This document shows positions 31,230 through 52,000 of a DNA stretch of 64,000 nt, piece after piece. A program made the position numbers and the translations under genes. Source of the DNA: Lachnospiraceae bacterium JLR.KK008. Lineage in GTDB: Bacteria; Bacillota; Clostridia; Lachnospirales; Lachnospiraceae. Every line of letters starts with the position of its first letter. Position 1 is the first letter of the stretch. Location of the stretch: the NCBI GenBank assembly GCA_037015955.1, contig CP143548.1, positions 2,536,001-2,600,000 of the forward strand, read 5' to 3'. The notes under the pieces are model-generated. The model saw only the letters and a list, made by a program, of their open reading frames with translations. It searched no databases and was not told where the DNA came from.

Positions 31230-32287
31230 TCACTTTCTCCAAAAAGTGCATCATAGTCATACGCATCTATCATGCTTTTCATCTTTCTCAGCTCTTCCTC
31301 GTAGTTCTCTCTGGTAATCCTGTGCTCTCCGCTGACAAAACACTCTGTCATATAGCGATTGATACTCTGATTGTAATGGCTCGCATCCGCATACAGATCC
31401 AGATCGACGACGACCTCTTCCAGAGTTGGAAAAAAGAACAGCTCGACGTTATCGTATGCTAACAGTTTTTCCATAAAGTACCGATATTCATACATAACCG
31501 CGTCCATTTGATTGTTGCGGACATATTCATACCAGTACAAAATACTGTATGGCGGAAAAAATATTGTAAACTGCGTCTGCGGATGTGATTCGATCACAGG
31601 CAGGATATTCGCCTGCAGATTGGCATCCAGTCCTTCGATAAACAGATCCTCCGGGAAGAAAGCATCGTTATCCTCCGGTATGGTATAATGTTCCAGCACA
31701 TAAGCCCGACTGTAACAACCCTGAAGCTGTGGCTCCGAACAGTAGACGCTGCTTAAGTCTGTCGGCTGCCCCTCTGCCACCGGTTTGAGAATATAGTCGA
31801 GCAGTACGTCCTTATTATACCAGTAATTGACATCGCTAAACAAATTGGAGTCGTGCAGATGCGCAGGATGCGGATATTTCGTCTCCTGTGTGCCGCCCGT
31901 ATAGGAGGCAAGATCGACGCCGATAAACACCCGCTTCAGTTCCTGCCTGCTCTCGTCCACCCGTTTCATGATAATATGAATGTCCCGCGGATAAGCGCCA
32001 TTGTAACTGAGCTTGACCATCTTCAGTCCCATCTGCTCTGCAAACCAGTCTGTCTCGAAATTGACAGTCATGGAAGAACCGAGCATCACACTGTCATATT
32101 CCATATGCCACGCCATCCCCGGATTCTGATTGAGCTGATTATCAATCTGATAGGGGAACCGTTCCAGTGGCCTGTGATAATGAAAAAACGGGTCCACAAT
32201 GATCACAAGTCCCGCGATACTGCCCAGACCAACCAATATGAAACTGCCTGTCATACGAAGCCATCGTTTGTAAGTCATCATTTCCAT
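31226..32287 (-). CDS. SGNH-type acyltransferase partner of MBOAT, membrane-anchored
   Basis: 353 residues. One N-terminal membrane segment (about 12-31) and a soluble outer domain. Block I is DSVMLGSSMTV (S71/S72) and block V is DASHYNQS (D301, H304), so a Ser-His-Asp set is readable. Such proteins (AlgX/AlgJ/DHHW-like, PatB-like) take acyl groups from an adjacent MBOAT and place them on a polysaccharide. The MBOAT gene ends 5 bp upstream and the start of the next gene overlaps by 4 bp, so all three are coupled. Acetyl is the usual group in this class. The target glycan is inferred. Confidence 0.78.
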   Translation of the reverse strand: MEMMTYKRWLRMTGSFILVGLGSIAGLVIIVDPFFHYHRPLERFPYQIDNQLNQNPGMAWHMEYDSVMLGSSMTVNFETDWFAEQMGLKMVKLSYNGAYPRDIHIIMKRVDESRQELKRVFIGVDLASYTGGTQETKYPHPAHLHDSNLFSDVNYWYNKDVLLDYILKPVAEGQPTDLSSVYCSEPQLQGCYSRAYVLEHYTIPEDNDAFFPEDLFIEGLDANLQANILPVIESHPQTQFTIFFPPYSILYWYEYVRNNQMDAVMYEYRYFMEKLLAYDNVELFFFPTLEEVVVDLDLYADASHYNQSINRYMTECFVSGEHRITRENYEEELRKMKSMIDAYDYDALFGESE

Positions 32288-32292
32288 ATCCG

Positions 32293-33792: not shown

Positions 33793-33794
33793 TG

Positions 33795-34829
33795 CTAACC
33801 CTTTTCAGGAATCCCACAGCAGATCCTGAATACCTTCGCCTTAGTGATAATATAGCGGGACACTGCCAGAACGATGGCCGTATCCATGATAAAATTTCCC
33901 CCGATGATCAGAACCGGACTTTCCACATGAAGGACAGATACGAGCAGCGTGCGTGTTGCCACAAGCGCATAGGCATCAAACAGATACATCTGCAGCGACC
34001 ATGTCCCGCAACTGACCAGTAACGCTCCGATCTTTCCCCTGCACATACAGGCAAGTCCGTAAAAGAATAGAAAGCCGGCAAATACACATAATACTTCCAG
34101 ATACCGGTACGGCAGTTCCCACCGGCCATCCCCACCAAAGACCATCATCCCTGCAAAGCAGAGCCCCATGACGACAACGGCAGGAAACAGATACTGCTTT
34201 CGCGAAAAAACCGGCAGCAGCCTGTCCGCTTTCCTGCGCAGACCATACCCAATCAGAAAGTACCACAAATACTGACTGACCATATTCAGCAGCAGCAGAT
34301 CCGTCACATATGGCTTCAACACAAAGAGCAGGACTACGAACAGAATACATAGTTTCTGCCGTCTCTGCGCCCCCTCCCTGGAAACACCGTCTGCGCTGCT
34401 CACAAGCAGCCTTTCCAGAGCCGGAAAGACCATGACGATCACAAAGAGCGTCCACAGAAACCAATCGCTTCCCCCATACAGTACAAAGTCAACGAGCGCT
34501 TCCTTCGCATTCATCCGTTCATTGACAAAGGGATTCGGTATCAGCCGCGGCAGGATGTCCAGCAGCGAAAATACGACATGGGGAATGAGAATACGTCTGC
34601 ACTTGCGCAGCGCATACTGCCAATATCCGCCATGAAAGGAATAGCAAAAACCCGATACGAGAAAAAACAGCGGCATCTGCACTGTCCACAAAAATGTATG
34701 CAGTGTCTTGCACCACTGGATTTCATGAAGATTCAGCGGAAAAACGATCACGGAATGATACAGCAGAACCATCAGAATCGCCATTCCCCGCAGTATGTCC
34801 ATTTCCTTCCATCGCTTTTGATCAGCCAT
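33795..34829 (-). CDS. acyltransferase-3 family membrane protein (OafA/fucose O-acetylase-like)
   Basis: I start at ATG 34829 (344 aa), placed 6 nt after GAGGT. About ten membrane helices. The N-terminal MDILRGMAILMVLLYHS (R and H typical of acyltransferase-3 proteins) and PLFFLVSGFCYSFH motifs are clear. This family O-acetylates surface sugars, using cytosolic acetyl-CoA. It is the first gene of a ten-gene minus-strand unit and has its own promoter at 34853-34881. It lacks the C-terminal SGNH domain of long OafA proteins. Confidence 0.85.
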   Translation of the reverse strand: MADQKRWKEMDILRGMAILMVLLYHSVIVFPLNLHEIQWCKTLHTFLWTVQMPLFFLVSGFCYSFHGGYWQYALRKCRRILIPHVVFSLLDILPRLIPNPFVNERMNAKEALVDFVLYGGSDWFLWTLFVIVMVFPALERLLVSSADGVSREGAQRRQKLCILFVVLLFVLKPYVTDLLLLNMVSQYLWYFLIGYGLRRKADRLLPVFSRKQYLFPAVVVMGLCFAGMMVFGGDGRWELPYRYLEVLCVFAGFLFFYGLACMCRGKIGALLVSCGTWSLQMYLFDAYALVATRTLLVSVLHVESPVLIIGGNFIMDTAIVLAVSRYIITKAKVFRICCGIPEKG

Positions 34830-34852
34830 AAGTTTACCTCGCCAGATGTTAT

Positions 34853-34881
34853 ATTTTATCATATTCCCCATTTTATTACAA
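34853..34881 (-). promoter_or_regulatory. promoter of the 34829-22957 operon
   Basis: On the minus strand: TTGTAA, 17 nt, TAAAAT, with the ATG at 34829 preceded by GAGGT. No other clear promoter is seen for about 12 kb downstream. It is back to back with the plus promoter at 34905-34933. Confidence 0.65.
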
Positions 34882-38838: not shown

Positions 38839-39114
38839 GCCGGTCTCTTCCACCATAACCAATGCAGGAAAAAAGAAACAGCAAACGATCATACGTCATT
38901 GCTGAGCAACAACGCAGACGGACTGCATTCGCCATCCAGGCTCAGGCAGCCCTTTTCCGGACTTCCCTGTCCGGAAACTGCTACTATCGGACAGGACAAT
39001 GGAAAATACAAATATCCTTCGCAAATCGCAAACACGAAAATCTTTCTGTCCTTCTGCGCCGATCAGAAAATAATGAATCGTTGCCGTTCTTTTATTCCTT
39101 CTGCGTTTATCGTA
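38839..39114. other. 276-bp gap between convergent units, with competing hairpins
   Basis: No gene recognised. A perfect 9-bp stem (38954-38962 with 38969-38977) shares bases with a second possible 7-bp stem (38967-38973 with 38988-38994), so only one can form. Neither has a U-run, so neither is a standard terminator. Confidence 0.45.
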
Positions 39115-40404
39115 TCACTTCCACCGTCTCATAAACGCCGCAAACCGTACGCCGAATATGACGAGCGTCGTCATACTTGACACAAGCAATGCGACATTGA
39201 TCCCGTCCATCCCCCATTGGATGATACACGGATAAGAGACACCGATCACTGCTGCTGTTCCCGCCGCCGCTCCAAGCAGCAGTCCTTTCCTGTCCCGCAG
39301 CACGGTCAGCACATTGCCCATAAACCAGATCAGCGCAATAATCCCACAACAAAACACGGTCGGCATGAGCAGATATACATACGGTCTGATCGTCTCTGTG
39401 AACACAAGCACGAGCACCCATTCACCAAGCAGAGCACACCCGCCGAGCGCAGCCGCAACCAGCGCCACTATCACTATGGTCAGCTTCCCAAACAGCGACA
39501 GAAACTTCTTTTTCTCGTTCCGCGCCACATACTCAGAAAACAGCGCCGTAAATGTCGTAAAGATATAAGAAGCAAACAGTTGAATGACCGAAGCGGGAAT
39601 CGCCACGGACGCATAATATCCGAGCATTTCGCTCCCGGCGACCTTCTCCAACACATAGCGGGGAATCGGCACAACCATATTCAAACAGATCGCATAGACA
39701 AACAGCGGAAAGCATTCCTTTGTGAGCGAGAGCAGCGCTCCTTTGTCAAACCGCAGAGAAAACGAGGCGAAACGGTACGCCTGTGGAATATCGTAGAGAA
39801 AGATCACACCATAAACGGCCACCAGCATGACTGCCGTTGTCACCGCCAGATTGCCCGTGAGCTTTTCCAGTACAATAAATGACAAAAGTGTCAGAATTGC
39901 CCGCAGCAGAAACGATTTCCCGGCCACATCGAGACGCCATGCTTTCTGATCAATGCCGTGAAACACATCCACAACCGGCTCGCCGAGACGGTAGACCATA
40001 AACAGAAGCAAAAATACCGTCACATAAACGCCATAGCCATTACACAACACAAACAGCAAATAGAGCGCCAGTGCGGCTCCGGTCATTACCACCCGGTGCG
40101 TCACATAAATATCCTCGTCATATTTGCCCGAAAGATCTGACACCTGATAATTGCGGATACAGAAATAGGCAATGTTCGTAAAGATATTCGTCAGCGACAA
40201 CCCCAGCGACAGATAGCCTGCCTCCGCATATCCGGCCAGATGTACGATGAGAATCGTCATCGCCCACTGAGCGCCGATAAAGCCGGTAGAACCGATCACA
40301 TTCCAGAGCATGTTTTTGCGGATCGTATCGGCCGGAATATCCGCCCGGACATTTCCGCCCCCTTCCACCTTCTTTTCCAGACCGCTCTCCGTCCTATGTT
40401 TCAT
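39115..40404 (-). CDS. polysaccharide flippase, MATE/PST (Wzx) superfamily
   Basis: 429 residues with about 12 helices. Features typical of Wzx: RKNMLWNVIGSTGFIGAQW near residue 29, then AGYLSLGLSLTNIFTNIAYF. GAGGAAG precedes the ATG, which lies 11 bp inside the end of the CotH gene. It is the last gene of the minus-strand unit that starts at 51903, so it most likely flips the lipid-linked repeat unit built by that unit. It is clearly diverged from the other flippase at 20264-21697. Confidence 0.87.
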   Translation of the reverse strand: MKHRTESGLEKKVEGGGNVRADIPADTIRKNMLWNVIGSTGFIGAQWAMTILIVHLAGYAEAGYLSLGLSLTNIFTNIAYFCIRNYQVSDLSGKYDEDIYVTHRVVMTGAALALYLLFVLCNGYGVYVTVFLLLFMVYRLGEPVVDVFHGIDQKAWRLDVAGKSFLLRAILTLLSFIVLEKLTGNLAVTTAVMLVAVYGVIFLYDIPQAYRFASFSLRFDKGALLSLTKECFPLFVYAICLNMVVPIPRYVLEKVAGSEMLGYYASVAIPASVIQLFASYIFTTFTALFSEYVARNEKKKFLSLFGKLTIVIVALVAAALGGCALLGEWVLVLVFTETIRPYVYLLMPTVFCCGIIALIWFMGNVLTVLRDRKGLLLGAAAGTAAVIGVSYPCIIQWGMDGINVALLVSSMTTLVIFGVRFAAFMRRWK

Positions 40405-42214
40405 TGCGCACTTCCTCTTCTTTCCTGTAAACCGCTTTCAGCACAAACGGTACACCGTCATACGGCTCCGTAAAGTCGTACACTTCTCCGGTATCTTCCC
40501 GAACCCAGTGGTCGAACCGGTAGCCCTCCCATTTGGGGTCCCGCGGTTCGTGTAACGTCCTACCCTCGACGGCGTCGATCTCCGTCACATACATGACACC
40601 CTCGCCCGGATCACAGACAATCAGATCATACGTACGTCCTTCCAGCCAGATGTCACTCAGAAATTCCATCCGCAGACGCAGAAATTCCCTGATCCTCTCA
40701 ATCTCCGTCTCATATTGCTGCGCAAATTCAAGTTCTTCTTCCCGCTTAAAATCTTCAAACGTATCCCAGCGCATATAGTCCATGTAGGCGCTGTCCCAGA
40801 TCTCATCCCGATAGCTGTCGATCCCTTCCGCAAGCATCGACTCGACCGCAGGAATCGCCATCGTTTCAAATTCCTCGATGACCTTTTCCCGGAAACGGGG
40901 AATCTGATACAGATCATACCACCAGGAGGCGTCTTCCCGCTTTTTGGCTGCGAAGATTCCCCGCGGCTCCTGAAAGTTGACCGGACGGGTATTTTCAATA
41001 ATCGGATTGCCAAGCGTCTTGTCATAATCCCACACCGGTCCCGCATATATTTTCGGCTCCGCACTGTCTGTCTGACCGGCTTCGGTCTGCCCTGCCGCCT
41101 CCCGGTAAAAATACTGGCTCGAATACATGGCGTCCAGATTTTTACCGATCTCTTCGATGAGATACTTTCTGGCAAAGCTCGTCAGATCCATAGTCCCCTC
41201 GTCAAATGTCCCCGCCCGGATACCATTTTCCATCTCCTGAAACGTATCGGCGATATAGGTAAACTGTAACGGTGTGGGCGCCGCAGGCCGTTTGACCACG
41301 ACATTCTGCCCGTTCGTTGTCGTGAAATAATAGTCCGCCTCCGCCAGCCTGTCTTCATAGGGATATTCCAGTGTGATCAGAAATCCTGTCTTTTCCTGCA
41401 CTGTGTCGGTATTGATGTCCACTCTGCCGTGCCCGGTCTCCACCTTCTCTGAGATCTGATAGGATCCCCGGTACTCATTATTCACATACAGGTCGACAAA
41501 CATGCTGACCGGAGAATAGTCCAGCCCCAGGTCTCCGGACAGATCATACATAATGCGGTCACGAAGGAGAGACTGATCCTGCCTGTTTGCGAGCAGAATG
41601 TATTTATCCTGCGCGCCGTTTCCGAGCAGGTCCACACTCTCCTCCAGCGTCATCTGATAGGGCTTTTTATCTTCCAGAAAAGTAGCGTTACCTCTTGATT
41701 TTAACTTTTTCACTGCTCCGGCGGCGCTCACCGTCCCGTCCGCCGCGATGACCTGATACAGACCGGGTTCTCCGTTTCCCTTCTCCGCCTCGATATGGTC
41801 GAGACTGCCGGACTGCGTTGTCAGAAAGAGCGCCGGCACTTTGGAAGAATACATGACGACGACCGTAAACTGTGTATTTCCAACATGCAGCGTATGCTCA
41901 CCCGCCGTGAGCGAGACAGTCTGTTCCTCATCCGCAAACGGCTCTTCGTCCCATATCTTTCCTGCCCATCCGCCGCCGATGATCTGCGCAGACGCTTTCC
42001 CGCCGCAAAAAGAGGGGAGAAACAGATATTCTTTGTTGTTATAATAATTGTGCCACAATTTCAGATTGATCTCATTTTCCTGTGCTGCCACTGCAAAAAT
42101 GATGTCCTCAAAGGACACCGGCTGCTGCGACTCCCAGTGCAGGCGCAGCGACACATAAGCGGACAGTAAAAAGACCGCCGCCAGAAGTCCGACCACTTTA
42201 ACTTTTGTCTTCAT
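40394..42214 (-). CDS. CotH-family protein, paralogue of 26225-28255
   Basis: I start at ATG 42214 (606 aa), after GGGACGG; it overlaps the GT4 gene end by 17 bp. A signal anchor (about 5-22) is followed by an outer chain with the CotH pattern: KSRGNATFLEDKKPYQM, LLANRQDQSLLRDRIMYDL, LYVNNEYRGSYQISEKVE and WDYDKTLGNP. The C-terminal segment (EGYRFDHWVREDTGEVYDF) is again a Listeria-Bacteroides-type repeat. The shared layout with the 676-aa protein shows duplication between two glycan operons. Kinase activity on an outer protein or glycan is possible by analogy with spore CotH; nothing else here is sporulation-related. Confidence 0.82.
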   Translation of the reverse strand: MKTKVKVVGLLAAVFLLSAYVSLRLHWESQQPVSFEDIIFAVAAQENEINLKLWHNYYNNKEYLFLPSFCGGKASAQIIGGGWAGKIWDEEPFADEEQTVSLTAGEHTLHVGNTQFTVVVMYSSKVPALFLTTQSGSLDHIEAEKGNGEPGLYQVIAADGTVSAAGAVKKLKSRGNATFLEDKKPYQMTLEESVDLLGNGAQDKYILLANRQDQSLLRDRIMYDLSGDLGLDYSPVSMFVDLYVNNEYRGSYQISEKVETGHGRVDINTDTVQEKTGFLITLEYPYEDRLAEADYYFTTTNGQNVVVKRPAAPTPLQFTYIADTFQEMENGIRAGTFDEGTMDLTSFARKYLIEEIGKNLDAMYSSQYFYREAAGQTEAGQTDSAEPKIYAGPVWDYDKTLGNPIIENTRPVNFQEPRGIFAAKKREDASWWYDLYQIPRFREKVIEEFETMAIPAVESMLAEGIDSYRDEIWDSAYMDYMRWDTFEDFKREEELEFAQQYETEIERIREFLRLRMEFLSDIWLEGRTYDLIVCDPGEGVMYVTEIDAVEGRTLHEPRDPKWEGYRFDHWVREDTGEVYDFTEPYDGVPFVLKAVYRKEEEVRNET

Positions 42215-43379
42215 AAAACCGTCCCAGTTCCCTGGCGTTCTCCGCCACATCATATCCGCTGCGGGCGATCACATCCGCATAACGCTCCCGCCCTGCGGCT
42301 GCCATTGTCAACGCCTGCCGCGCCCAATTCTGCGGCGTCTCCGATAGCGGCATCGTCCGCACGAGATCGGTCAATACAACCTCATCCGTGACCGTGTCCG
42401 CCATAAGCACCGGCAGCCCTGCTGCCTGCGCCTCCACGAGCGTCACCGGCAGTCCCTCAAAAAGAGAAGGAAAGAGCATCCCATCCGCCGCCTGCATGAG
42501 CGCCGGAACATCGGTACGCATTCCCAGCAAAAAGACATGTCCTTCCAGTCCGTATGCCCTGATCTGTTCCCTGATCTTCTGCTCCAACGGCCCCGCGCCG
42601 CATAAATACAGGACCGTCCGCGGATTCAGAGCAGCGATCTCTCTCATAATACGCAGCAAAAAGGCATGATTTTTCTGCTCTTCCAGACGGCCGATATGAA
42701 GAAATACGGTCACTTCCCGCTCCCCGCCGTTTCCGCCATTTTCCGCTGTCTCTGCTTCCTCCGGTTCGCATGAAGTCAGCGTCATACCGCTCATAAGCTC
42801 CCGCCGTTTTCCGGCGCGCACCGCTGCGTCAAACCGAAAGCACTCCGGATCAATGCCGTTTAATAAAATCCGGAAATTACTTTTCCCGCAGGCCCGCTTC
42901 CCATAAAGCCATCTGCCGGCCCACGCGGAACAGGCAAACAGATAGTCCGCCTGGAACCGCAGCGGCGCCTGCATGATATTTTTTATAACCGCCGAAAATC
43001 CGCTGCCCGAGGATGTATTGTGGCTGTGGACGATCGTCACCAGCCCCGCTCTCTTTGCCTCCTGCAGGTAGAGAACGGCCGTGCTGCGCATATGTCCGTG
43101 TATGATACGATACTCCGGATGCGCCTGAAAAAACGCCCGCCACTGTCTGCGGTAGCGAAGCGCCGTGCCAGGCGTAAACCGCTCCATCGAATAGATCCTG
43201 CCGCCAAGCCGCTTCACTTCCTTCGTATAATCGCAGATTTCCTCCGTATGAATGACAAAGTCAAACTGGATGCGGCTCCTGTCCATATGACGATAGAGAT
43301 TCATAATCATCGTCTCCGCCCCGCCCCGGTCCAGCCGCCCCAGCACCTGTAATATGCGAATCGGTCTCTCCCTGTCCAT
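42198..43379 (-). CDS. family 4 glycosyltransferase (EpsF-like)
   Basis: 393 residues, GT-B fold. RGGAETMIMNLYRHMD near residue 17-32 is the GT4 acceptor-side signature, HGHMRST and IVHSHNTSS follow, and the donor half begins at VTVFLHIGRLEEQKNH. A late SLFEGLPVTLVEAQAAGLPV gives the EX7E pair. GAGGAATAAGGT precedes the ATG. It follows the SGNH gene by 3 bp and precedes CotH. It adds a sugar to the lipid-linked unit on the inner face; donor unknown. Confidence 0.9.
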   Translation of the reverse strand: MDRERPIRILQVLGRLDRGGAETMIMNLYRHMDRSRIQFDFVIHTEEICDYTKEVKRLGGRIYSMERFTPGTALRYRRQWRAFFQAHPEYRIIHGHMRSTAVLYLQEAKRAGLVTIVHSHNTSSGSGFSAVIKNIMQAPLRFQADYLFACSAWAGRWLYGKRACGKSNFRILLNGIDPECFRFDAAVRAGKRRELMSGMTLTSCEPEEAETAENGGNGGEREVTVFLHIGRLEEQKNHAFLLRIMREIAALNPRTVLYLCGAGPLEQKIREQIRAYGLEGHVFLLGMRTDVPALMQAADGMLFPSLFEGLPVTLVEAQAAGLPVLMADTVTDEVVLTDLVRTMPLSETPQNWARQALTMAAAGRERYADVIARSGYDVAENARELGRFYEDKS

Positions 43380-43382
43380 ACC

Positions 43383-44831
43383 TTATTCCTCTGACGGCCT
43401 GATCGCAGTGTTCACATCATCACTGGCAAAGCCGACCTGATCGACAAGCTGGCCCCATTCATTGTCATAGACCCATATCGTAATACCGTTATCTGTCAGC
43501 AGAACATCCCTGCCGTCCCACCAGATACCGTCCGCCGTCACTTCCAATTTTTTCCGCAAAAGGATCTGTGTTCCCAGGCGTCTTTCCGTGCGCTGGTCTT
43601 CCTCCGTCAGCACGTCGTCTGGACAGATACCGTTCTCTTCCACAATGCTGAAATTCCCGGTCATCTTCTCTTCCTCCAGATTGAGCACCGTGCTCAGATA
43701 TTGTTTGTAGAACTGTAATTTCTCCGTATCCCCGTGAAAGGAAAACACGACCGTATGTCCGGTGTAGGGGATGAGATTGAGATATGCGTCCAGCCCCTGC
43801 GTCCGTGTAAGCGCCTCATTGGCCCTGTCATGAGCTCTGTCACGCAGGGCAATGTCCCACGAATTCTCTCTGTCTTCGCCGCGCCGGTCCGGAAGATCAT
43901 AGCGATCCTTCAAATATTGCCCCAGATACAGAGAGGCCTTGCGGGAACCGGTGCGGTTAAAATGTGACCAGTCACGGAAGTCGAGTACCGGGTCCACCTC
44001 CAGCTCATCCAGCAGATCGTAATAATTCACAAAAGGCAGATCATACTGCCGGGCCAGCTCCTCCACCTGCTCCGTATCGGTGATCGTCCAGCCCATATTC
44101 GGTCCCTTGAACAAAAATAATTCAATCCCGTTCTCGCGGCACAGAGCAACGATCTTTGCCAGCGCCTCTTTGTTTTCATCCGGAATGGTTTCTCCCGAGC
44201 TTCCATAATAGGCAGAAAAATCAAGCGGATTGTCCGTGATCTTGTCCGGCGTATAGGCTCCCTTCGTGTAATTGACACCACTTTTGTCAAAGTCTTCTAA
44301 TGTCAGTTCCTTCCAGCGGTCCTTATACTGAAGGATCGGCAGCATCTGCATGGCGTACATTTCCCTGTTCGACTCCAGCATCTGATATAGCTGCGTCATC
44401 TTATCGACAGAAAACCTCAGGTCTGTCATCGCATAAGTCCATACTTCCAGATCATCAGGATCAGCCTTTTTCACGATGCCGACGACTTCCAGTCCGATCA
44501 CTTTCGGTTTCTGATACCGCAGCACTTCCTTCAGATACAGATATTCCGAGACAAACGGCTGCGCCGAGCAACCAAAGTCATAGGAAGCAATCCCATATTC
44601 TTCATATAAAACAAGCGGGTCTGCCGTGCAGAACATCTGGCTGCTTCCAAGAAACACGACATCAATGTCATTTTCCTTCTCCGCATAAAATCCTCTTACG
44701 ACATCACTGCCCCTGTGCTCCGTGCTCTTGATGAGCAATTTCTGTATGCCAGACAAAAGGAGGAAAAGAATCGCCAGAAATACGATGACCTTTCCACCGC
44801 TCAATATGATGTTCCCTCTGTTTTCTTTCAT
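43383..44831 (-). CDS. SGNH-type acyltransferase partner of the second MBOAT
   Basis: 482 residues. A membrane anchor (about 13-33) and a large outer domain. Block I is DVVFLGSSQMFC (S63/S64) and block V is FRDWSHFNRTG (D287, H290). It lies in the same unit as the MBOAT at 44933-46513 with a 101-bp gap. The last 150 residues form an extra beta-rich region absent from the other SGNH partner (31226-32287), perhaps for glycan binding. It would transfer the MBOAT-carried acyl group to the polymer. The long gap and weak ribosome site suggest lower expression than its neighbours. Confidence 0.78.
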   Translation of the reverse strand: MKENRGNIILSGGKVIVFLAILFLLLSGIQKLLIKSTEHRGSDVVRGFYAEKENDIDVVFLGSSQMFCTADPLVLYEEYGIASYDFGCSAQPFVSEYLYLKEVLRYQKPKVIGLEVVGIVKKADPDDLEVWTYAMTDLRFSVDKMTQLYQMLESNREMYAMQMLPILQYKDRWKELTLEDFDKSGVNYTKGAYTPDKITDNPLDFSAYYGSSGETIPDENKEALAKIVALCRENGIELFLFKGPNMGWTITDTEQVEELARQYDLPFVNYYDLLDELEVDPVLDFRDWSHFNRTGSRKASLYLGQYLKDRYDLPDRRGEDRENSWDIALRDRAHDRANEALTRTQGLDAYLNLIPYTGHTVVFSFHGDTEKLQFYKQYLSTVLNLEEEKMTGNFSIVEENGICPDDVLTEEDQRTERRLGTQILLRKKLEVTADGIWWDGRDVLLTDNGITIWVYDNEWGQLVDQVGFASDDVNTAIRPSEE

Positions 44832-44932
44832 ATCCCTGCGCTCCCGTTAAACAGTGCCAAATTGATCGGAAATCCTTCACCGGCCATATCTCTCCGGCTG
44901 TTTTTCGCAGATACCAAGCCCTGACCACGCTG

Positions 44933-46513
44933 TCAGAACCCGGCATAAATAAAGTTTGACGTGTCATAGGACGCTCCATAGCAGCCGAGCACCAAAACAC
45001 TGAAAAACAATCCATACCAGACTGCCCAGCGGACGACAAGCGGTCTCTCGTCCAGCCAGTCCCGAACATCGCCGTCCTCCCGCTTGCGGGAAACATGAGA
45101 AATCGCCCCCAGAAGAAGCAGGCCCGCTGCCGTCACCGCCAGCTCCTTCTTACCAAGCCCGAGAGAAAACAGCCCGCTTCCGAGGATTCCCGCATTCCAG
45201 CGCAAAACTCCATTTCGCAGCAGGTAACATGCCTGTTTCAGACTATCAGCCCGGAAAAAGATCATGCCTGTGGCAAAACAGAGAAACGTGCGTATCCGCT
45301 GAATGATAATCCACCACCAGGCATCTTTATTGATATGGAAAAAAGCCAGTCCCTTCTTCCATACCGGCTCCATCATCTGGCTGCCGACAATCAGAAACCA
45401 AAACCAGAAGCCCTCGCCGATCACATATTTCCAGTCGTTGCCATGCCACACGCCCATGGCCGTCCAGAGCACAAATAAGCCGGCCCAGGTAGGAATCCGC
45501 TTCCCGAGACTTTTACCCCAACGCTTTTTGATCTTACTGCCCATCCGATACCAGGTCTCAGTCTTCAGCACCGGATACATTATATAGTCTTTCAGCCATG
45601 TGCCGAGCGTAATATGCCATCTCTGCCAGAATTCCTGTATTGTGCGCGCCGAGAATGGCTGCCGGAAATTCTCCGGCAAAACGACGCCAAAACATTCCGA
45701 CGTGCCGAGCACAATGTCCATACAGCCCGCAAAGTCGGTATATAACTGCAAAATAAAAGCAAAAGCCGCCGCCCAGACATAGAACCCGGAATATGTATCC
45801 GGATCTCCGTACACCGTATTCACGATCACCGCCAGCCGTTCGGAGAGGACGAGCTTCTGGAAAAATCCCCACAGCACTCTCTGGATGCCGTGCAGCACTC
45901 TTATCCCCTGAAACCGCGCGCCCGCATACAGCGTCTGTGACAGCTCTCCATACCGGCTGATCGGTCCCGATACCATCTGCGGAAAATAACAGCCAAAAAG
46001 CAACACCTTGCCGATATTTCTTTCCGCCTGGCATTTCCCCCAGTAACAGTCAAGCAGATACCCTGTGATCTGCAGCGTATAAAAGCTGATACCGAGTGAG
46101 GCTGTAAACCGGAAATAAGGTGTCTCTGTCAGCCCGCCGGACAAATGATATACAAAAAAGACAGGCTGCAGAAAAAGATTCAGATATTTCAGTACCGCCA
46201 AAATACCAAAATTGACGGTCAGTACGGCCGTCAGCCAGATTCTTTTCTCTTTCTCCGCCCGGCTGCACTGACCGGAATCCCTGTTTTCCGTATCTGCCAG
46301 CCGCCCATCAATGACCGCAAAGCGTATGGTCGCCCAATAAACCGTACCCACACTGACAAGCAGATAGATGATCGTGACAGGCGCTGCACTGATCAGATAA
46401 AAGAGCAGGCTCCCCGTCAGCAGCACATACCAGCGCGCTTTCCCGGGGACCCCGTAATAGATCAGCAGCAAGACAAAACAAAACGCCAGAAAATAGATCG
46501 ATGTTACACTCAT
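44933..46513 (-). CDS. MBOAT O-acyltransferase, second copy (DltB/AlgI-like)
   Basis: 526 residues with about 11 helices. Family marks: SFYTLQITGYLLDCYWGK (142-160), CYFPQMVSGPI (175-185), EFWQRWHITLGTW (294-306; H300) and catalytic H357 in GVWHGNDW. GGAGTAAAAC precedes the ATG, and the SDR gene ends 13 bp upstream. Unlike the MBOAT at 32293, it is linked to an acyl carrier protein, MaoC, SDR and FkbH. Its acyl donor may therefore be an ACP thioester, as DltB and its carrier DltC work for D-alanine. The product could be an unusual hydroxyacyl ester on the glycan. Confidence 0.92.
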   Translation of the reverse strand: MSVTSIYFLAFCFVLLLIYYGVPGKARWYVLLTGSLLFYLISAAPVTIIYLLVSVGTVYWATIRFAVIDGRLADTENRDSGQCSRAEKEKRIWLTAVLTVNFGILAVLKYLNLFLQPVFFVYHLSGGLTETPYFRFTASLGISFYTLQITGYLLDCYWGKCQAERNIGKVLLFGCYFPQMVSGPISRYGELSQTLYAGARFQGIRVLHGIQRVLWGFFQKLVLSERLAVIVNTVYGDPDTYSGFYVWAAAFAFILQLYTDFAGCMDIVLGTSECFGVVLPENFRQPFSARTIQEFWQRWHITLGTWLKDYIMYPVLKTETWYRMGSKIKKRWGKSLGKRIPTWAGLFVLWTAMGVWHGNDWKYVIGEGFWFWFLIVGSQMMEPVWKKGLAFFHINKDAWWWIIIQRIRTFLCFATGMIFFRADSLKQACYLLRNGVLRWNAGILGSGLFSLGLGKKELAVTAAGLLLLGAISHVSRKREDGDVRDWLDERPLVVRWAVWYGLFFSVLVLGCYGASYDTSNFIYAGF

Positions 46514-46526
46514 TGTTTTACTCCGC

Positions 46527-47258
46527 TTATTTTCCTCCGTTGATCACCAGATTCTGTCCGGTGATACAGCCCGCAGACTCCGATAATAGATAGGAAAAAG
46601 CCGGAATGACATCATCCACTGTCAGATTCCTGCCAAGAGGACTGCCCGCCGCGTTCTGCTCGATCACCAGCTCCGGGATGTCTTTTAAAAACTTCGTCTC
46701 CATCATCTCCGGCGACACCGCATTTACCGTAATTCCCTTGTCGGCATATTCCACCGACAGCGACCGCATCAACCCGAGAAGGGCATATTTGACCGTGACA
46801 TAAGGACTCAGAAACTTCGGCGGTCTTCCATCCACATAGGAAGTCAGCATAAATATAATCCTTCCATGCTTCTGTTTGACCATATCCGGAAGAAACGCCT
46901 GTAAAATATGGACCGGCGCTTCCAGAGAAGTGTCCAGCCCGGCCCCAAAGTCGTCCCAGCCACACTTGATAAACTTCACGTTCCGGCATCGCGGCGCACT
47001 GAAATGCACGATATGATCAGGCTTCCAGCCTTTTTCCCTGATATAGTCGACCATATGCACCGCACTGTCTTTCTCGGAAAAATCCGCCTGCAGCAGTACG
47101 AGCTTTTTCCCCAGCCTGCGGCTAAGCGCCGTCAGCTTTTCGTTCATATGACAATAATGTCCGAGTATCGTATCGTATCTGTCAGCCACCGCTTCCATCA
47201 GCGCACAGCCAATATCCGAGGAGGCTCCCAATAATAAAAGTGTTTTACCGCTTTCCAT
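46527..47258 (-). CDS. SDR-family oxidoreductase (FabG-like)
   Basis: 243 residues, classical SDR. NAD(P)-binding motif GASSDIG (11-17, a slight variant of TGxxxGxG), the active-site Y-x-x-x-K in YVTVKYALLG, and the late INGG motif at the C-terminus. The Ser of the catalytic set appears in MLTSYVDG. It overlaps the MaoC gene end by 14 bp. Next to ACP and MaoC it probably reduces a beta-ketoacyl or oxidises a hydroxyacyl group on the carrier. A sugar-modifying SDR is the alternative. Confidence 0.85.
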   Translation of the reverse strand: MESGKTLLLLGASSDIGCALMEAVADRYDTILGHYCHMNEKLTALSRRLGKKLVLLQADFSEKDSAVHMVDYIREKGWKPDHIVHFSAPRCRNVKFIKCGWDDFGAGLDTSLEAPVHILQAFLPDMVKQKHGRIIFMLTSYVDGRPPKFLSPYVTVKYALLGLMRSLSVEYADKGITVNAVSPEMMETKFLKDIPELVIEQNAAGSPLGRNLTVDDVIPAFSYLLSESAGCITGQNLVINGGK

Positions 47259-47670
47259 TCAACACACCTACTTTCATTGTTCCACGAACGACCTTGTCCC
47301 CATCCTGATTGATGATCTCCACCTTTAACACGACAAAGGAAAAGGTGTCATTCTTTTCTTTCACCGTTCCTTTCACTGTCAGACGGTCTCCGGGAAACAC
47401 CGCTCTGGCAAACTTCACGTCCGTCTCCAGGATCAGGCTGTTCTCCCCCGGCAGATAGACGCCGGCCAGTGTTGAAAGAAAGGAAGCCGTCAGCATCCCG
47501 TACGTCACCTGCCCCGGATACCCCATCGCTCTGGCAAATGTCTCATCGCAGTGCAGCGGATTATCATCCCCCGTAATCCGGCGGAATGCCTCCATCATTT
47601 CCGGCTCCACCACTGTCTCGAAAGACTCTGTCATCCCCACCGACAACTCTTCATAGGAATAGTGATTCAT
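47245..47670 (-). CDS. MaoC-like (R)-hydratase/dehydratase
   Basis: 141 residues, the length of a single hot-dog MaoC domain. GDDNPLHCDETFARAMGYPG is the MaoC active-site region (Asp and His of the catalytic pair), followed by YGMLTASFLSTL. It interconverts trans-2-enoyl and (R)-3-hydroxyacyl thioesters. The gene starts 1 bp after the ACP stop and overlaps the SDR start, so ACP, MaoC and SDR are a tight translational unit. The substrate is probably ACP-bound. Confidence 0.9.
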   Translation of the reverse strand: MNHYSYEELSVGMTESFETVVEPEMMEAFRRITGDDNPLHCDETFARAMGYPGQVTYGMLTASFLSTLAGVYLPGENSLILETDVKFARAVFPGDRLTVKGTVKEKNDTFSFVVLKVEIINQDGDKVVRGTMKVGVLNGKR

Positions 47671-47671
47671 A

Positions 47672-47911
47672 TTAAATTCTCTCCAAAATAATATCTACCA
47701 TGGCGCCGACATGTTCCATTGTCGTCGCCTCTCCCATCGTAAATTTCATCCCGAACTTTTTCTCTATGGCCACGATCAGATTGATATGCTCCAGGCTGTC
47801 CCAGTCCTCAATATCGTCCGCCGTTGTTGTTTCCCCTACCGTAATCTCCTCGTCGTCAAAAATATCGCGAAACACTTCGTTTACCCCTGCAAACACTTCT
47901 TCTCTTGTCAT
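47672..47911 (-). CDS. acyl carrier protein
   Basis: I start at ATG 47911 (79 aa), after GGGAGG. An acidic four-helix carrier: DWDSLEHINLI holds the phosphopantetheine serine S39. The size and charge fit stand-alone ACP/PCP-like carriers. It is followed at once by MaoC and SDR and preceded, beyond the palindrome, by FkbH, which in known pathways loads a three-carbon unit from 1,3-bisphosphoglycerate onto a carrier. It is therefore the likely shuttle for the acyl group handled by the nearby MBOAT. Confidence 0.92.
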   Translation of the reverse strand: MTREEVFAGVNEVFRDIFDDEEITVGETTTADDIEDWDSLEHINLIVAIEKKFGMKFTMGEATTMEHVGAMVDIILERI

Positions 47912-47973
47912 TTTATCGTCCTCCCTTTTCACCTTCCGTATCTACATAGCTGCGAAACACAATCATTTATGAA

Positions 47974-48194
47974 ATTTCATTCACTACACCTAGTGTGAGA
48001 CTGATCGTTTCCTTAATGGCAAAAGCACGAAAGTCAGACACGCCGGACATTTCGATGAGCCTGTAAGTGCAAAAACCATGTTCAGCGAAGACTTCCATGG
48101 TTTTTCAGTCTCATCTCCATGGCGGTCAGATGCCTTTCTTTGCTTTTGCCATAAGGAAACGATTTTGGCACAAACGGTGGAATTTATATGAAAT
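47974..48194. repeat. long imperfect palindrome between FkbH and ACP genes
   Basis: Nested arms pair in order: 47974-47980 with 48188-48194 (7 bp), 48006-48027 with 48141-48161 (22/21 nt, one deletion), 48054-48063 with 48106-48115 (9 of 10), and 48071-48080 with 48096-48105 (10 bp perfect, 15-nt loop). The whole folds as one hairpin about 220 nt long. A 9-nt stretch (48063-48071) is also complementary to 48206-48214 next to the FkbH stop. It may be a small palindromic mobile element (MITE-like) or an RNA structure that separates FkbH from ACP expression. Both strands contain short ORFs, which I regard as shadows of the symmetry. Confidence 0.7.
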
Positions 48195-48210
48195 CTCAAC
48201 TCATCTGCAC

Positions 48211-50004
48211 TTACGCAGTCGTCTGTCCCGTATCCACCTCAATCACCTTATTCTGTCGTTTATATTCTGAGACGGCGAGCTGCCATTTCGTATTTCCCTG
48301 CCCGTCCTCTTCCACTTTAGTAAATCCCCGCTGGCCATAGAACTCTTTCACCATACCGTTTTTGGCCGTCGGATAGTAAAATCCGCAGATCGTGCGCACG
48401 TCTCTCTCCTGTGCCTGTGCCACAAGAGTGTCCATCATCGCGCATTCCATGTCCCGTTTCAATACCCGGCAGCTCATGAGCCACAGTTCAATCAGCAGCG
48501 CCTCTCCTTCCAGTCTGCCGATCACCACAGAGACGACGCCATTGTCACCGAACCGGTCCTCCAGCCTGCCATACAGCGTGATACGGGATTCATCTGCGGC
48601 AGCCGCCTCAATCTCCGACTGCGAATAGCGTTTCGTCGTCAGGTTAAACTGATTGCTCTTATTTGTAAGCTGGGCGATCCGCGCCATATAGACCGGCGCA
48701 AAAGGCCTGATCTGTGCCTTCATCTCCAGGGATAGCAGATAATCCTCATAGGTGGCAAACGATGCCTGCAGAGCCGCCCGTTTTGCATTTTCCTGATACA
48801 TCTCGTTACGTTTCAGATCGTCGTTCGATATATCGGTCGCCTCAAAAAATCCGCTTCGGTCCAGTATTTTCACATAATGTTCCACCGTACCGATCTCCGG
48901 TACGGCCACACCCGGCAGCTGCGCCCCGACGATCGCCCGCTCTGCCGGGTTGTCGTCCACAAATACGAGACTCTCCGGCAATAACTGCAACTTTTCGGCG
49001 ATTCTGGCTAGATTCCGGTCTTTTGGCTCCCAGTTGGCCATGATCTCGATGAAATCCTCTTTTCTCAGCACACTCTGAGGGTGCGCCAGACCGGCTACGG
49101 CATTCTCATAATCGTTTTTGGAATCGATATTCAGGAGAACGCCAAGCTGTGTCTGTTCCTTCAGATAGCGCTGAAACTCCTGATAGACCTGTCCCATCGA
49201 AGTCTCCTGCCCGATCTCGATCCTGTCGACACCATCGTCGCCGATCACACCGCCCCACAGCGTATTATCGAGATCGAGGACATACCCTTTTTTATTTTTG
49301 CCGGACAGAGACTTGATCATCCTGGCCAGACTGAATGCAAAATCAGGAATCGCTGGCACACAGCAGCAGTATTTGTACATATGCCAGTAAAACGGATCGG
49401 ACCACTGTTCCAGTCCGTAACTGGCGGACAGATAATTGATGTCGTGAATATAAAACTTTTCATGGCTGCGGGCGTACTCTGCAAACAGCAGGTTCAGCCT
49501 CGTGATATAGTTGACTTTGCCATGAATATCGCTGGCTTCCTTATTGCCGAGAAGACGGTAGTAAGGATATTCGAAATTGTTCTGAATGACGGCGCAGTGA
49601 AATTTCTCCCGAATACTCTCCCACATGGCGGTATACTTCCCGACTTCCTGCTCCAGCATCTCCTCCACCCGCTCCTGCGAATCGGCCAGTGCCGGAAAGC
49701 GGCTGATATTGCGTCCGGACGTATGCAGATAGACAATGTCAGGCGCAAACGCGGTCAGCGCTTCCCCCGGAAACATTGCCTCCTCGTAATACTGATCGTA
49801 TTCCGATTCATAAAACTCAGGCGCTATCCCATAATTCAGCAAAAAGAGCTCCAGCATTGCCCTAATGTCATTGGTCGTGGAGCCGCCTAGCATGGCGATC
49901 TTTCTCACGATCCTGCTGCTGCCGTCCTCCAGCAGCTCTTTTCTGATTCTCTTTTTCTTCTTCAGCAAATATTGTCCGTCAAACGGATATTCCAGACATT
50001 TCAT
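48211..50004 (-). CDS. FkbH-like HAD protein with SGNH-like N-terminus and GNAT-like C-terminus
   Basis: 597 residues. The N-terminal third has an SGNH-like block (AMLGGSTTNDIRAM, 37-50). The HAD-IIIC core starts with VLDLDNTLWGGVIGDDG (nucleophile D244, D246), and VFVDDNPAER is the late acidic motif. The last 165 residues resemble a GNAT-like domain (IAQLTNKSNQFNLTTKRYS, FGDNGVV). FkbH proteins dephosphorylate 1,3-bisphosphoglycerate and load glyceryl onto an ACP; other members are fused to or paired with glycan enzymes. An ACP follows after 299 bp. AGGAAGAAG lies before the ATG. The product could be a glyceryl or lactyl-type group for the glycan. Confidence 0.87.
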   Translation of the reverse strand: MKCLEYPFDGQYLLKKKKRIRKELLEDGSSRIVRKIAMLGGSTTNDIRAMLELFLLNYGIAPEFYESEYDQYYEEAMFPGEALTAFAPDIVYLHTSGRNISRFPALADSQERVEEMLEQEVGKYTAMWESIREKFHCAVIQNNFEYPYYRLLGNKEASDIHGKVNYITRLNLLFAEYARSHEKFYIHDINYLSASYGLEQWSDPFYWHMYKYCCCVPAIPDFAFSLARMIKSLSGKNKKGYVLDLDNTLWGGVIGDDGVDRIEIGQETSMGQVYQEFQRYLKEQTQLGVLLNIDSKNDYENAVAGLAHPQSVLRKEDFIEIMANWEPKDRNLARIAEKLQLLPESLVFVDDNPAERAIVGAQLPGVAVPEIGTVEHYVKILDRSGFFEATDISNDDLKRNEMYQENAKRAALQASFATYEDYLLSLEMKAQIRPFAPVYMARIAQLTNKSNQFNLTTKRYSQSEIEAAAADESRITLYGRLEDRFGDNGVVSVVIGRLEGEALLIELWLMSCRVLKRDMECAMMDTLVAQAQERDVRTICGFYYPTAKNGMVKEFYGQRGFTKVEEDGQGNTKWQLAVSEYKRQNKVIEVDTGQTTA

Positions 50005-50082: not shown

Positions 50083-51903
50083 TCACGGCCTCGTGACCGT
50101 CACCGGCTCGGCGCCAAGCTCCTCATACCAGTATTTCTCTCCGTTTTGGAGCTGCAGGGTAACTTGACGGTCGCCCTGCCAGTCGAATTGTAGCGGCATA
50201 TCATAATACGCTCCCGGCGCCAGATTGCCCCACAGGTTTGTCCCGATGTCGTCCCGCTCCTTACAGCCGATCCGCACCTCGTCATACTTTGTGTTGATCA
50301 GACTCTCTCCCGTATTTTTCACACGGATCGTCACATAGCAGGTGTCTCCCTCTTCCTCCTGGGAGAGCAGTTCATACTCCACCCGCCCTTTCATATCTTC
50401 CGGCATCCGGGAATAATAATAGAGCGGCGTCTCATGTTCATTCATGACAATCTCCAGATTCCCCGCCGCCGCTGCCGCGTCGAGCAGCGGGTCGATCCTC
50501 TCTGCCGGCGCATGGGAAGCCAGAATATAACACCTGTCTTCCTGCAGAACTTTGTCAATATCTCCCTGCGCATCTTCCTTGTTCAGCGTATCTGTCGCCC
50601 AGATGATATTGTCCTGTGCGACATTGCCGATACGCTCCGTATCATAACCGATCTTATACTTTGTCACCGGAATGCTCTGGTAATAGACATATACCATTTC
50701 CCCCTCCGTCACATGTTCCTGCAGATAAGCGATAACCGGATTGGCTTCTTCTCCGGCCTGATAGACATTCTCACTGTGCCGGTACACCAGAATCCCATTG
50801 TTCGTGAGCAGCAATGTAAACATCAGAAACACCGCCGTCAACTCCGCTTTCCTGCTGCTGACAGCCATCTTATCTATGGCATAAAAGGCAAGGATCGTAA
50901 AAATCGGAAAGGAAAAACACCAGAGCCTGTCCGCGATCGGAAACATATGAATAGAGGACGCGAACAAAGATACCAGAAAGCCGAGAAAGATAACGACACT
51001 GTACCGGTTCTTCTCCCAGAACATTCCGATCGCAAAGGCTGCCAGGACAAAGGCAATCATAAAGATGCGGGCTTCCCGGAATGTGATAAATATCTCATAG
51101 ACCATCGCCTGCGCCTGCCGCAGATCTTCGATGCTCCTGGGGATGAGCGGAAAGCTGGCATTATCCCAATAGCTCTGCATACTGCCGCTGAGCGCGATTC
51201 CCCGCAGCCAGTAAACATAATAGATGACAAAACTGATGCCGATACCGATGCCGGTGACAATACTGTTCTTCACCCTTGTTTTATCTTTTGCCAGTATACC
51301 GGTCACAAATTCGTACAGGAGCACACCGCCCACAAAAAAGCAGACCGGATTGGCGCCCCAGATAAAGACCATAAAGCCAAGCATCATCTTCCACCACGCA
51401 AGGCCCTTCTCCTTATACCGATAATAGAGAACGAGGACGAGCAGCACCCAGATACATTCGGAGAGATACTGCTTGAATTCATTGGAATACTTTAAAATAA
51501 AGTTCATATTGGCAAGGAACGCCGAGACAAGAAGCGGATATTTGATCCGGAACAATTCCCTGGCCACATACCCGCTCAGAAACAGCACGGCAACATAGGC
51601 AATAATCGAGAAGCTGCGCAGCACGAATTCCGTGTTGCCGAAGATACAGGTGAGCAGCTTTACACAATACAGATAAAGGACCGGCGCACTCTGATCCCAC
51701 TCGAAGACTCCGCTAGTCAGACCGAACAAAGACCGCTTGCTGAAGGAAAAAGCCAGCATCGCCTCATCCAGCCAGAGTGTCCGGCCTACACAGTTCATAA
51801 AAATGCTCACACCGATACCGGCCGCAATGATACACAGGCCAATCACATCCGCCGCCTTTTTGATATTATTTTCTTTTTTCCAGTTGTTCCAACATTGCTT
51901 CAT
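50083..51903 (-). CDS. GT39/ArnT-like membrane glycosyltransferase with C-terminal beta domain
   Basis: I start at ATG 51903 (606 aa), after GGAG 6 nt away; a 30-codon longer reading is less likely. About 11 helices. The first outer loop has LWLDEAMLA (D46, E47), the acidic pair of GT39/PMT/ArnT enzymes, then WDQSAPVLYLYCVKLL. The C-terminus beyond residue 500 adds a soluble beta-sandwich-like domain. It uses a polyprenyl-phosphate sugar and modifies a protein or glycan outside the membrane. It is the first gene of the 51903-39115 unit. It is paralogous to 56604-58088, which lacks the last 110 residues. Confidence 0.82.
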   Translation of the reverse strand: MKQCWNNWKKENNIKKAADVIGLCIIAAGIGVSIFMNCVGRTLWLDEAMLAFSFSKRSLFGLTSGVFEWDQSAPVLYLYCVKLLTCIFGNTEFVLRSFSIIAYVAVLFLSGYVARELFRIKYPLLVSAFLANMNFILKYSNEFKQYLSECIWVLLVLVLYYRYKEKGLAWWKMMLGFMVFIWGANPVCFFVGGVLLYEFVTGILAKDKTRVKNSIVTGIGIGISFVIYYVYWLRGIALSGSMQSYWDNASFPLIPRSIEDLRQAQAMVYEIFITFREARIFMIAFVLAAFAIGMFWEKNRYSVVIFLGFLVSLFASSIHMFPIADRLWCFSFPIFTILAFYAIDKMAVSSRKAELTAVFLMFTLLLTNNGILVYRHSENVYQAGEEANPVIAYLQEHVTEGEMVYVYYQSIPVTKYKIGYDTERIGNVAQDNIIWATDTLNKEDAQGDIDKVLQEDRCYILASHAPAERIDPLLDAAAAAGNLEIVMNEHETPLYYYSRMPEDMKGRVEYELLSQEEEGDTCYVTIRVKNTGESLINTKYDEVRIGCKERDDIGTNLWGNLAPGAYYDMPLQFDWQGDRQVTLQLQNGEKYWYEELGAEPVTVTRP

Positions 51904-52000
51904 AAACACTCCGTCCGCTGACGCCGCTCTCCCGCCGTCTCTGTAGTCATTCCCACTGTCATGCAAAGAAATACAAATTTTATTTCCGGACAATAAATTC

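Follow-up and report, generated by a model that had tools for sequence, protein, structure and literature searches.

A putative carrier-fed pathway with an FkbH loader for surface-glycan acylation in Lachnospiraceae bacterium JLR.KK008

We analysed a stretch of 64,000 nucleotides (nt) from Lachnospiraceae bacterium JLR.KK008 (contig CP143548.1, positions 2,536,001 to 2,600,000; hereafter the window), whose genome is a single contig of 3.19 Mb. A large surface-glycan locus in the window holds genes for an FkbH-type enzyme, an acyl carrier protein (ACP), a MaoC-type dehydratase/hydratase, a short-chain dehydrogenase/reductase (SDR), a membrane-bound O-acyltransferase (MBOAT) and a putative SGNH partner. 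An earlier model-made reading of the letters (the original prediction) had proposed that these genes make and attach an unusual acyl group. All six lie on the minus strand at the positions given there, forming one co-directional block of the locus (Table 1).

Genes of the putative acylation block

The FkbH protein scored 262 bits against TIGR01686 (cut-off 146.65), and its residues D244, D246, T248, S295, K328, D350, D351 and C512 were invariant in 24/24 aligned FkbH sequences. Because all catalytic residues of the HAD domain are kept together with C512, the donor is likely to carry a phosphate, as 1,3-bisphosphoglycerate does, and FkbH is predicted to load glyceryl from this compound onto the ACP. 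Excerpts of two papers describe FkbH and a carrier protein loading glycerate in polyketide, tetronate and cyanobacterial peptide clusters (PMC4979870, PMC10143770). A table row in a metabolic-modelling paper, which cites the FR901464 cluster paper, gives the FkbH reaction as 1,3-bisphosphoglycerate plus ACP to D-lactate-ACP (PMC7901079, table row only).

The ACP matched Pfam PP-binding at E 0.0039 and NCBIfam ACP models at E down to 6.6e-9, all below the models' cut-offs; W44-D45-S46 surrounds its phosphopantetheine serine. The ATG at 47911, preceded by AGGGAGG, is its likelier start. The median net charge of the cassette ACPs (n = 35) was −12. The DltC model was not among the nine NCBIfam matches of the window ACP at E ≤ 0.001, and a search of the genome for a DltA-like ligase (TIGR01734) gave 0 matches at E ≤ 1e-10. 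This agrees with the claim that no adenylating enzyme is present and that FkbH stands in the loader's place, the loading role itself being predicted from sequence. The ACP adjoins MBOAT and SGNH genes, as the Dlt-like logic of the original prediction supposed.

MaoC residues D35 and H40, aligned with 1iq6, were invariant in 20/20 sequences, and we take them to be the catalytic pair of hydratase 2. The closest PDB sequences are the (R)-specific enoyl-CoA hydratases 5cpg and 1iq6. The SDR matched FabG-type models below their cut-offs, and in the window it has Y153, K157 and the catalytic serine. Across 12 aligned SDR rows, Tyr and Lys were found in 12/12, S or T at −14 in 12/12, and Ser at −13 in 6/12. 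By eye, no ketosynthase was seen among the listed open reading frames (ORFs) of the window, and among the related loci one was noticed only in L062.

The MBOAT active-site histidines H300 and H357 were invariant in 25/25 sequences. Its AlphaFold model (pLDDT, the predicted local distance difference test score, 86.7) had DltB 6bug as best PDB match, and its DltB equivalog score was 132.9 bits against a cut-off of 375, with unlinked MBOATs reaching 146-163 bits. The SGNH candidate matched no family at E ≤ 0.001 in the Pfam and NCBIfam scans (Lipase_GDSL_2 only at E 0.027). Residues S64, D287 and H290 were invariant in 7/7 sequences, and Foldseek placed DltD 6pfx first (E 6.8e-6) for a weak model with a pLDDT of 64.9. 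The residues and the fold match support the SGNH label.

The minus-strand order is GT-C-like, FkbH, ACP, MaoC, SDR, MBOAT, SGNH, GT4, CotH and flippase-like. The genes from ACP to MBOAT are closely packed, with two gaps (1 and 13 nt) and a 14-nt overlap. FkbH and ACP, by contrast, are 278 nt apart, and a palindromic repeat occupies the space. The stretch bearing it (47960-48210) has a folding energy of −94.3 kcal/mol (z −7.8). Related sequences lie at three other places in the same genome (80-91% identity), and in L050, the closest relative, FkbH and ACP are adjacent and the palindrome is absent at that position. The element looks like a miniature mobile element and may damp the expression of the genes after FkbH.

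Of the flanking genes, the neighbour described as GT39-like is weakly borne out by its match to PMT_2, which falls below the cut-off, and the proposed flippase is a membrane protein of that appearance for which the family scans gave no match. A TwoAYGGAY RNA (RF01731, 55.7 bits; 38873-39024, minus strand like the flippase-like gene) lies downstream of that gene. The glycan locus has two CotH-like genes, one recognised by reading (26225-28255) and one by its Pfam match (40394-42253).

Table 1. Coordinates in the window of the block, its repeat element and its co-directional neighbours.
Feature	Coordinates	Strand	Basis
FkbH, HAD-IIIC phosphatase and predicted acyl-loading enzyme, 597 aa	48211..50004	-	TIGR01686, FkbH_N PF21211
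Acyl carrier protein (ACP)	47672..47932, likely ATG start at 47911	-	weak PP-binding/NCBIfam ACP matches
MaoC hot-dog dehydratase/hydratase	47245..47670	-	PF01575, 66.5 bits
SDR reductase	46527..47258	-	PF13561, 127.7 bits
MBOAT acyltransferase, carrier-linked clade	44933..46513	-	PF03062, 48.3 bits
SGNH partner, predicted final transfer to glycan	43383..44831	-	invariant residues, DltD-like fold (weak model)
GT-C-like membrane protein, first gene of the co-directional run	50083..51993	-	PMT_2 E 0.0014, below cut-off
GT4 glycosyltransferase	42198..43379	-	PF00534/PF13439
CotH-like protein	40394..42253	-	PF08757
Membrane protein, flippase-like by appearance only	39115..40404	-	ORF, no family match
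Palindromic repeat element, FkbH-ACP gap	48004..48163	.	33-nt arms 48004-48036 / 48131-48163, 73% complementary

Spread of the gene set and separability of the MaoC cassette

Searching 299 genomes of the same family (Lachnospiraceae) for MaoC gave matches at E ≤ 1e-8 in 39. The close group (at least 104 bits; next place 83.5) comprised 19 places in 17 genomes. FkbH was found in 63 of the 299 genomes, namely in 17/17 of those with a close MaoC versus 46/282 of the others (Fisher p 4.7e-13, family sample). Thus, the gene set is not a product of chance. In the order sample (392 genomes), the MaoC profile scored at least 162 bits at 21 places, followed by a drop to 134, and in the phylum sample (398 genomes) only the window's own genome exceeded 162 bits, the next best being 141. 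When the family and order samples were combined, FkbH was found in 33/33 close-MaoC genomes. The one other genome of the same genus in the sample (G080) lacks both the close MaoC and FkbH, and has an MBOAT operon with a DltA-like ligase (L188). The locus therefore looks accessory.

The 299 genomes contained 73 FkbH loci in the 63 genomes, counted from 77 listed matches after neighbouring pieces had been merged by coordinates (two G205 pieces lie outside the fetched stretch). Loci reaching at least 500 bits with our own profile were defined as main-type (n = 56). Within 6 kb, an ACP was present in 50/56 of these and an MBOAT in 32/56, with some of the MBOATs so counted lying 2-4 kb away or on the opposite strand (L131, L140, L143). 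The combination of FkbH and ACP next to an MBOAT recurs in the family. MaoC and SDR were both absent from 25 of the 32 FkbH-MBOAT loci and both present in four; three scored SDR only, of which L113 alone is convincing. Three of the 14 SDR scored at FkbH loci are doubtful (a 33-bit contig-end piece in L034 and weak opposite-strand matches in L135 and L142). The low-scoring FkbH loci, divergent or partial (n = 17), had an ACP-like gene in 10, GNAT in seven, NeuB in six and MBOAT in 0, and are a weak control because 7/17 lack any partner and could be fragments or proteins of another kind. A divergent FkbH occurs with a divergent ACP, GNAT and NeuB at L096, L110, L115, L133, L134 and L146, perhaps for glyceryl N-acylation of nonulosonic acids.

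We then examined 37 loci with the MaoC cassette. An ACP was present in 34 and an SDR in 27; within 8 kb there were FkbH in 26, MBOAT in 12 and SGNH in eight, so that 25/37 are without MBOAT. Since 8/37 stretches were shorter than 12 kb, the counts were also taken for those of at least 12 kb (n = 29), giving MBOAT in 11/29 and SGNH in 8/29. Other neighbours were AAC(3)/DUF4910 (9), GNAT (6), NeuB (6) and transketolase-type genes (4). All six gene types occur together, in varying order, in seven loci (the window, L031, L047, L055, L061, L067 and L068); L055 has the window's exact order. The original prediction saw a possible self-contained system and named in advance, as grounds for giving up the idea, that the ACP-MaoC-SDR block be separable from MBOAT/SGNH in most genomes. 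This is what we found in most of the loci examined, so self-containment is not supported; conversely, the FkbH-ACP-MBOAT set lacks MaoC and SDR in 25/32 loci. MaoC and SDR are an add-on, and the cassette is a plug-in shared among transferases.

The SDR accompanies MaoC in 12/12 loci with MBOAT versus 2/9 with AAC(3)/DUF4910. AAC(3)-like and/or DUF4910 (M28-like) genes lie near ACP-MaoC in L032, L033, L035-L037, L039, L043, L051 and L064, possibly for N-acyl transfer from the same carrier. The idea that FkbH stands next to every MaoC was rejected on the count of 26/37 within 8 kb; 10 of the other 11 genomes were checked (L051 aside), and FkbH was found elsewhere in 10/10. Split transketolase genes were located at L061:10466-12240, at L064:7766-9528, and at L017:1881-3249 next to MaoC-ACP-SDR-MBOAT. 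In the L017 genome, FkbH also lies beside a transketolase piece at the end of another contig (L088). Such a pair perhaps provides a longer or branched acyl.

The MBOAT branch and the loop at the proposed docking helix

In a first tree (75 rows), the window MBOAT fell into a 25-row clade with support 100/100. Twenty-four rows lie within 6 kb of FkbH, a count that is partly circular as most rows had been picked for FkbH proximity, and the last (L059) accompanies ACP-MaoC-SDR with FkbH about 11 kb away. Related MBOATs were present in at least 275 of the 299 family genomes at E ≤ 1e-50, which is lenient enough to admit unlinked types too (at most five candidates per genome were scored). From among the matches listed, we took 20 high-scoring loci away from the FkbH loci (L177-L196): 14 adjoin a DltA-like ligase (L177, L179, L180, L185-L194 and L196), one (L178) has no loader that we saw, and five have no adjacent loader and belong to genomes with FkbH. 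The idea that all relatives of the window MBOAT sit with FkbH was thus rejected.

Among the 14 ligase loci, an SGNH match was found in 13 and, by eye, an ACP-like ORF in 10. The ligases of three loci were scanned, the others being read by eye; the three exceeded the cut-off of the amino-acid adenylation model TIGR01733 in 3/3 and scored 277-312 bits for DltA against a cut-off of 560. A single ACP from these loci was scanned; it was closest to DltC, below the cut-off. An Asp/Glu racemase-like gene occurs in the ligase operons L185, L188, L190 and L196 (L188 scanned), and a pyridoxal phosphate (PLP) decarboxylase-like gene in L187, L191, L192 and L194 (L192 scanned). These operons may esterify amino acids other than D-Ala, or amines.

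A second tree (71 rows) united the ligase-type and FkbH-type MBOATs in one 45-row clade (100/100), within which a 27-row FkbH-type branch had support 99/95. Five rows of that branch had been fetched regardless of FkbH, and 5/5 come from genomes with FkbH; the FkbH-linked rows L044, L097 and L138 fall outside it. Because the other members of the clade adjoin DltA-like ligases, FkbH appears to occupy the loader's place. MBOATs from loci with and without MaoC are intermingled in the trees, and therefore the tailoring genes have been gained or lost repeatedly. The TIGR04091 score was rejected as a sign of carrier use, since unlinked MBOATs reach 146-163 bits, as high as linked ones.

According to an excerpt on DltB, the carrier sits on the horizontal helix HC via M302, V305, I306, M309, K312 and R317 (PMC11035591). 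We located this helix on the MBOAT alignment by our own placing. Unlinked MBOATs have a YIPLGG[NS]R-like loop there, in a segment with a median of 38 residues and charge +4, whereas in the carrier-linked clade (55 residues, charge +8) a basic stretch replaces it. The PLGG loop was lost in 48/50 carrier-linked MBOATs and kept in 35/35 others, the unlinked set consisting of the top Pfam scorers and so being biased towards PLGG. Left out of this count were three DltB-like rows, F_L092, the duplicate L161, six 'U' rows and true DltB. For most unlinked MBOATs the ACP check covered a flank of about 1-1.5 kb and found none. In a tree built without the loop columns, the loop changed five times and the linkage seven times. 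The loss of the loop as a mark of carrier use is a pattern suggested by these sequences, no proof.

The C-terminal FXYXXF was found in 23/25 clade MBOATs (FIYAGF in the window). It is the acyl-shuttle motif of MBOAT-SGNH pairs in an excerpt of PMC12148441. Elsewhere in the window (31226-34871) there is a trio of a second MBOAT with a PLGG loop and FLYFNF tail, an SGNH-like gene and an acyltransferase-3 gene, with no ACP gene among them; it is probably acetylating and provides an internal contrast to the carrier-linked pair. In L049 and L084 (the window's own genome, contig positions 2691000-2715900), a more distant second MaoC lies about 12 kb from a further MBOAT and SGNH pair that keeps PLGG.

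Candidate route and comparison with known systems

Gene content and order, sequence conservation and catalytic residues are observed, as is a clade of carrier-linked MBOATs to which DltA-like-ligase systems belong too; from these we infer every reaction of the following route. FkbH would take 1,3-bisphosphoglycerate, a glycolytic acyl phosphate, and form glyceryl-S-ACP with removal of the 3-phosphate. As no chain-extending enzyme was seen in the window, glyceryl-ACP itself may be the substrate of the next two enzymes: MaoC would dehydrate it across C2-C3, yielding the enol of pyruvyl-ACP, and SDR would reduce the 2-keto group to form lactyl-ACP. The original prediction was right that both enzymes are there, and left their product on a glyceryl thioester unworked, for which we propose lactyl. 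Lactyl-ACP would dock on the basic segment of MBOAT, the acyl would pass through the membrane to the Tyr of the C-terminal FIYAGF, and SGNH, via its serine, would transfer it to a hydroxyl group on the extracellular glycan that the locus makes.

On these sequences, a passage from FkbH to ACP, MBOAT and SGNH is quite probable. That the group is lactyl we hold to be slightly less than an even chance. The whole explanation, a carrier-fed pathway of surface-glycan acylation in which FkbH replaces the adenylating enzyme and lactyl is the group, seems to us just on the probable side.

Several observations weigh against it. The SGNH structure model is weak (pLDDT 64.9), and the catalytic Ser of the SDR is missing in 6/12 aligned rows, although it is present in that of the window. 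In 7/9 AAC(3)/DUF4910 loci MaoC has no SDR with it, L113 has an SDR and no MaoC, and FkbH is absent within 8 kb of MaoC in 11/37 loci. The lactyl scheme leaves unexplained the split transketolase pair, which in L061 and L064 separates FkbH from ACP and in L017 belongs to the ACP cassette. A phylogeny-aware test of the loop with five independent pairs (median 4 to 0, one tie) was not significant (p 0.125), and the carrier-linked MBOATs of L107 and L117 keep PLGG. FXYXXF was also found in 32/32 unlinked MBOATs; it thus shows an MBOAT-SGNH shuttle and is no argument for a carrier.

The same route could deliver glyceryl itself, with MaoC and SDR acting on something else. The 25/32 FkbH-MBOAT loci without MaoC and SDR, whose MBOATs are intermingled with the tailored ones, suggest that an unmodified acyl is tolerated. 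We nevertheless consider this reading unlikely, because the ACP, MaoC, SDR and MBOAT genes of the window are 1-13 nt apart or overlapping, the SDR is kept in 12/12 loci with MaoC and MBOAT, and the MaoC catalytic residues are invariant. A 3-hydroxyacyl such as 3-hydroxybutyryl might instead arise if MaoC hydrates crotonyl-ACP or SDR reduces acetoacetyl-ACP, drawn from fatty-acid or butyrate metabolism. The (R)-enoyl-CoA hydratases as nearest solved relatives of MaoC and the sub-threshold FabG-type matches of the SDR would fit. Nonulosonic acids often bear 3-hydroxybutyryl, and 6/37 cassette loci adjoin NeuB. However, the lack of a ketosynthase among the window ORFs read by eye (L062 alone among related loci) and the 17/17 co-occurrence with FkbH, which ties MaoC to a C3 source, make this source of the acyl rather improbable.

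Delivery of pyruvyl or 2-hydroxyacryloyl, with the SDR inactive or working on another substrate, would account for the half of the SDR rows that lack the serine and for the AAC(3)/DUF4910 loci that have MaoC alone. Against it, SDR Tyr and Lys are kept in 12/12, the window has the Ser, and no locus with MaoC and MBOAT lacks the SDR, so we give it little chance. It is likewise very unlikely that two pathways lie side by side, one in which MBOAT/SGNH uses acetyl-CoA to acetylate the glycan and another in which a cytoplasmic transferase is fed by FkbH-ACP-MaoC-SDR. Elsewhere the ACP cassette does adjoin soluble-type transferases (AAC(3)/DUF4910 9/37, GNAT 6/37), and TIGR04091 scores fail to separate the window MBOAT from unlinked ones. 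But the MBOAT clade (100/100) is common to DltA-like-ligase operons, the loop at the carrier-docking helix is replaced, and no gene for a cytoplasmic acyltransferase was seen between FkbH and SGNH.

Returning to the lactyl route, we tentatively suggest a modular exchange, which we rate as possible and lean against: one carrier-fed MBOAT/SGNH machine, marked by loss of the PLGG loop, for which lineages swap loaders (amino-acid adenylation, FkbH, FkbH with MaoC and SDR, FkbH with transketolase) to make different glycan esters. Here lactyl would come straight from glycolysis, with no free lactate or ATP-dependent ligation. Our data suggest a branch of carrier-linked MBOATs that recurs in one gut-type bacterial family, its loaders being interchangeable and its members recognisable by a sequence mark. 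If this is true, genomes would predict which surface glycans bear unusual esters (glyceryl, lactyl, amino acids) instead of acetate.

In the open-access literature searched, a scope outside which most subscription journals lie, we found no description of an FkbH-ACP-MaoC-MBOAT glycan system, and a search for gellan glyceryl genes as a precedent gave nothing useful. FkbH/glyceryl-ACP clusters for polyketides, tetronates and cyanobacterial peptides share FkbH and a carrier protein with the window; unlike them, the window has no ketosynthase that we saw, and we predict a membrane acyltransferase as the recipient of its acyl. The suomilide cluster has FkbH and MBOAT together, serving separate parts of the molecule according to an excerpt of PMC10143770. 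Campylobacter jejuni cj1302, in a flagellar glycan locus, is similarly an FkbH-domain gene in a surface-glycan context, but the excerpt of PMC7099621 mentions no carrier protein or MBOAT, the comparison being by description, not sequence. Closer at hand, the ligase-ACP-MBOAT-SGNH operons of the same family (14/20 of L177-L196) have MBOATs of the same clade and differ in their loader, an amino-acid-adenylating enzyme (TIGR01733, 3/3 scanned).

PatAB/AlgI-type O-acetylation has an MBOAT-SGNH pair with fused C-terminal FXYXXF as the window does (excerpt of PMC12148441), whereas the window block encodes an ACP and its PLGG loop is replaced. The same 2025 paper, in the excerpt, states that, Dlt apart, MBOAT/SGNH pathways have no carrier protein and evidently draw on acyl-CoA (PMC12148441). 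The carrier-linked branch bears on this statement.

In DltABCD(X), which D-alanylates teichoic acids, a carrier thioester feeds an MBOAT and an SGNH protein finishes outside the membrane (excerpt of PMC12148441). A similar arrangement is predicted here, with gene adjacency, the MBOAT clade and the loop as indirect signs that the carrier feeds the MBOAT. The structure models agree, with the window MBOAT closest to DltB and the SGNH closest to DltD. In contrast to Dlt, the window genome has FkbH in place of a DltA-like match, MaoC and SDR probably tailor the thioester, and the acyl shuttle is fused to the MBOAT C-terminus where Dlt's is on DltX. Membership of Dlt was rejected on the absence of DltA at E ≤ 1e-10, the DltB score below the cut-off and the lack of a DltC model match. 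The system works like Dlt with an FkbH loader and a fused PatA-type shuttle, but it is other than Dlt.

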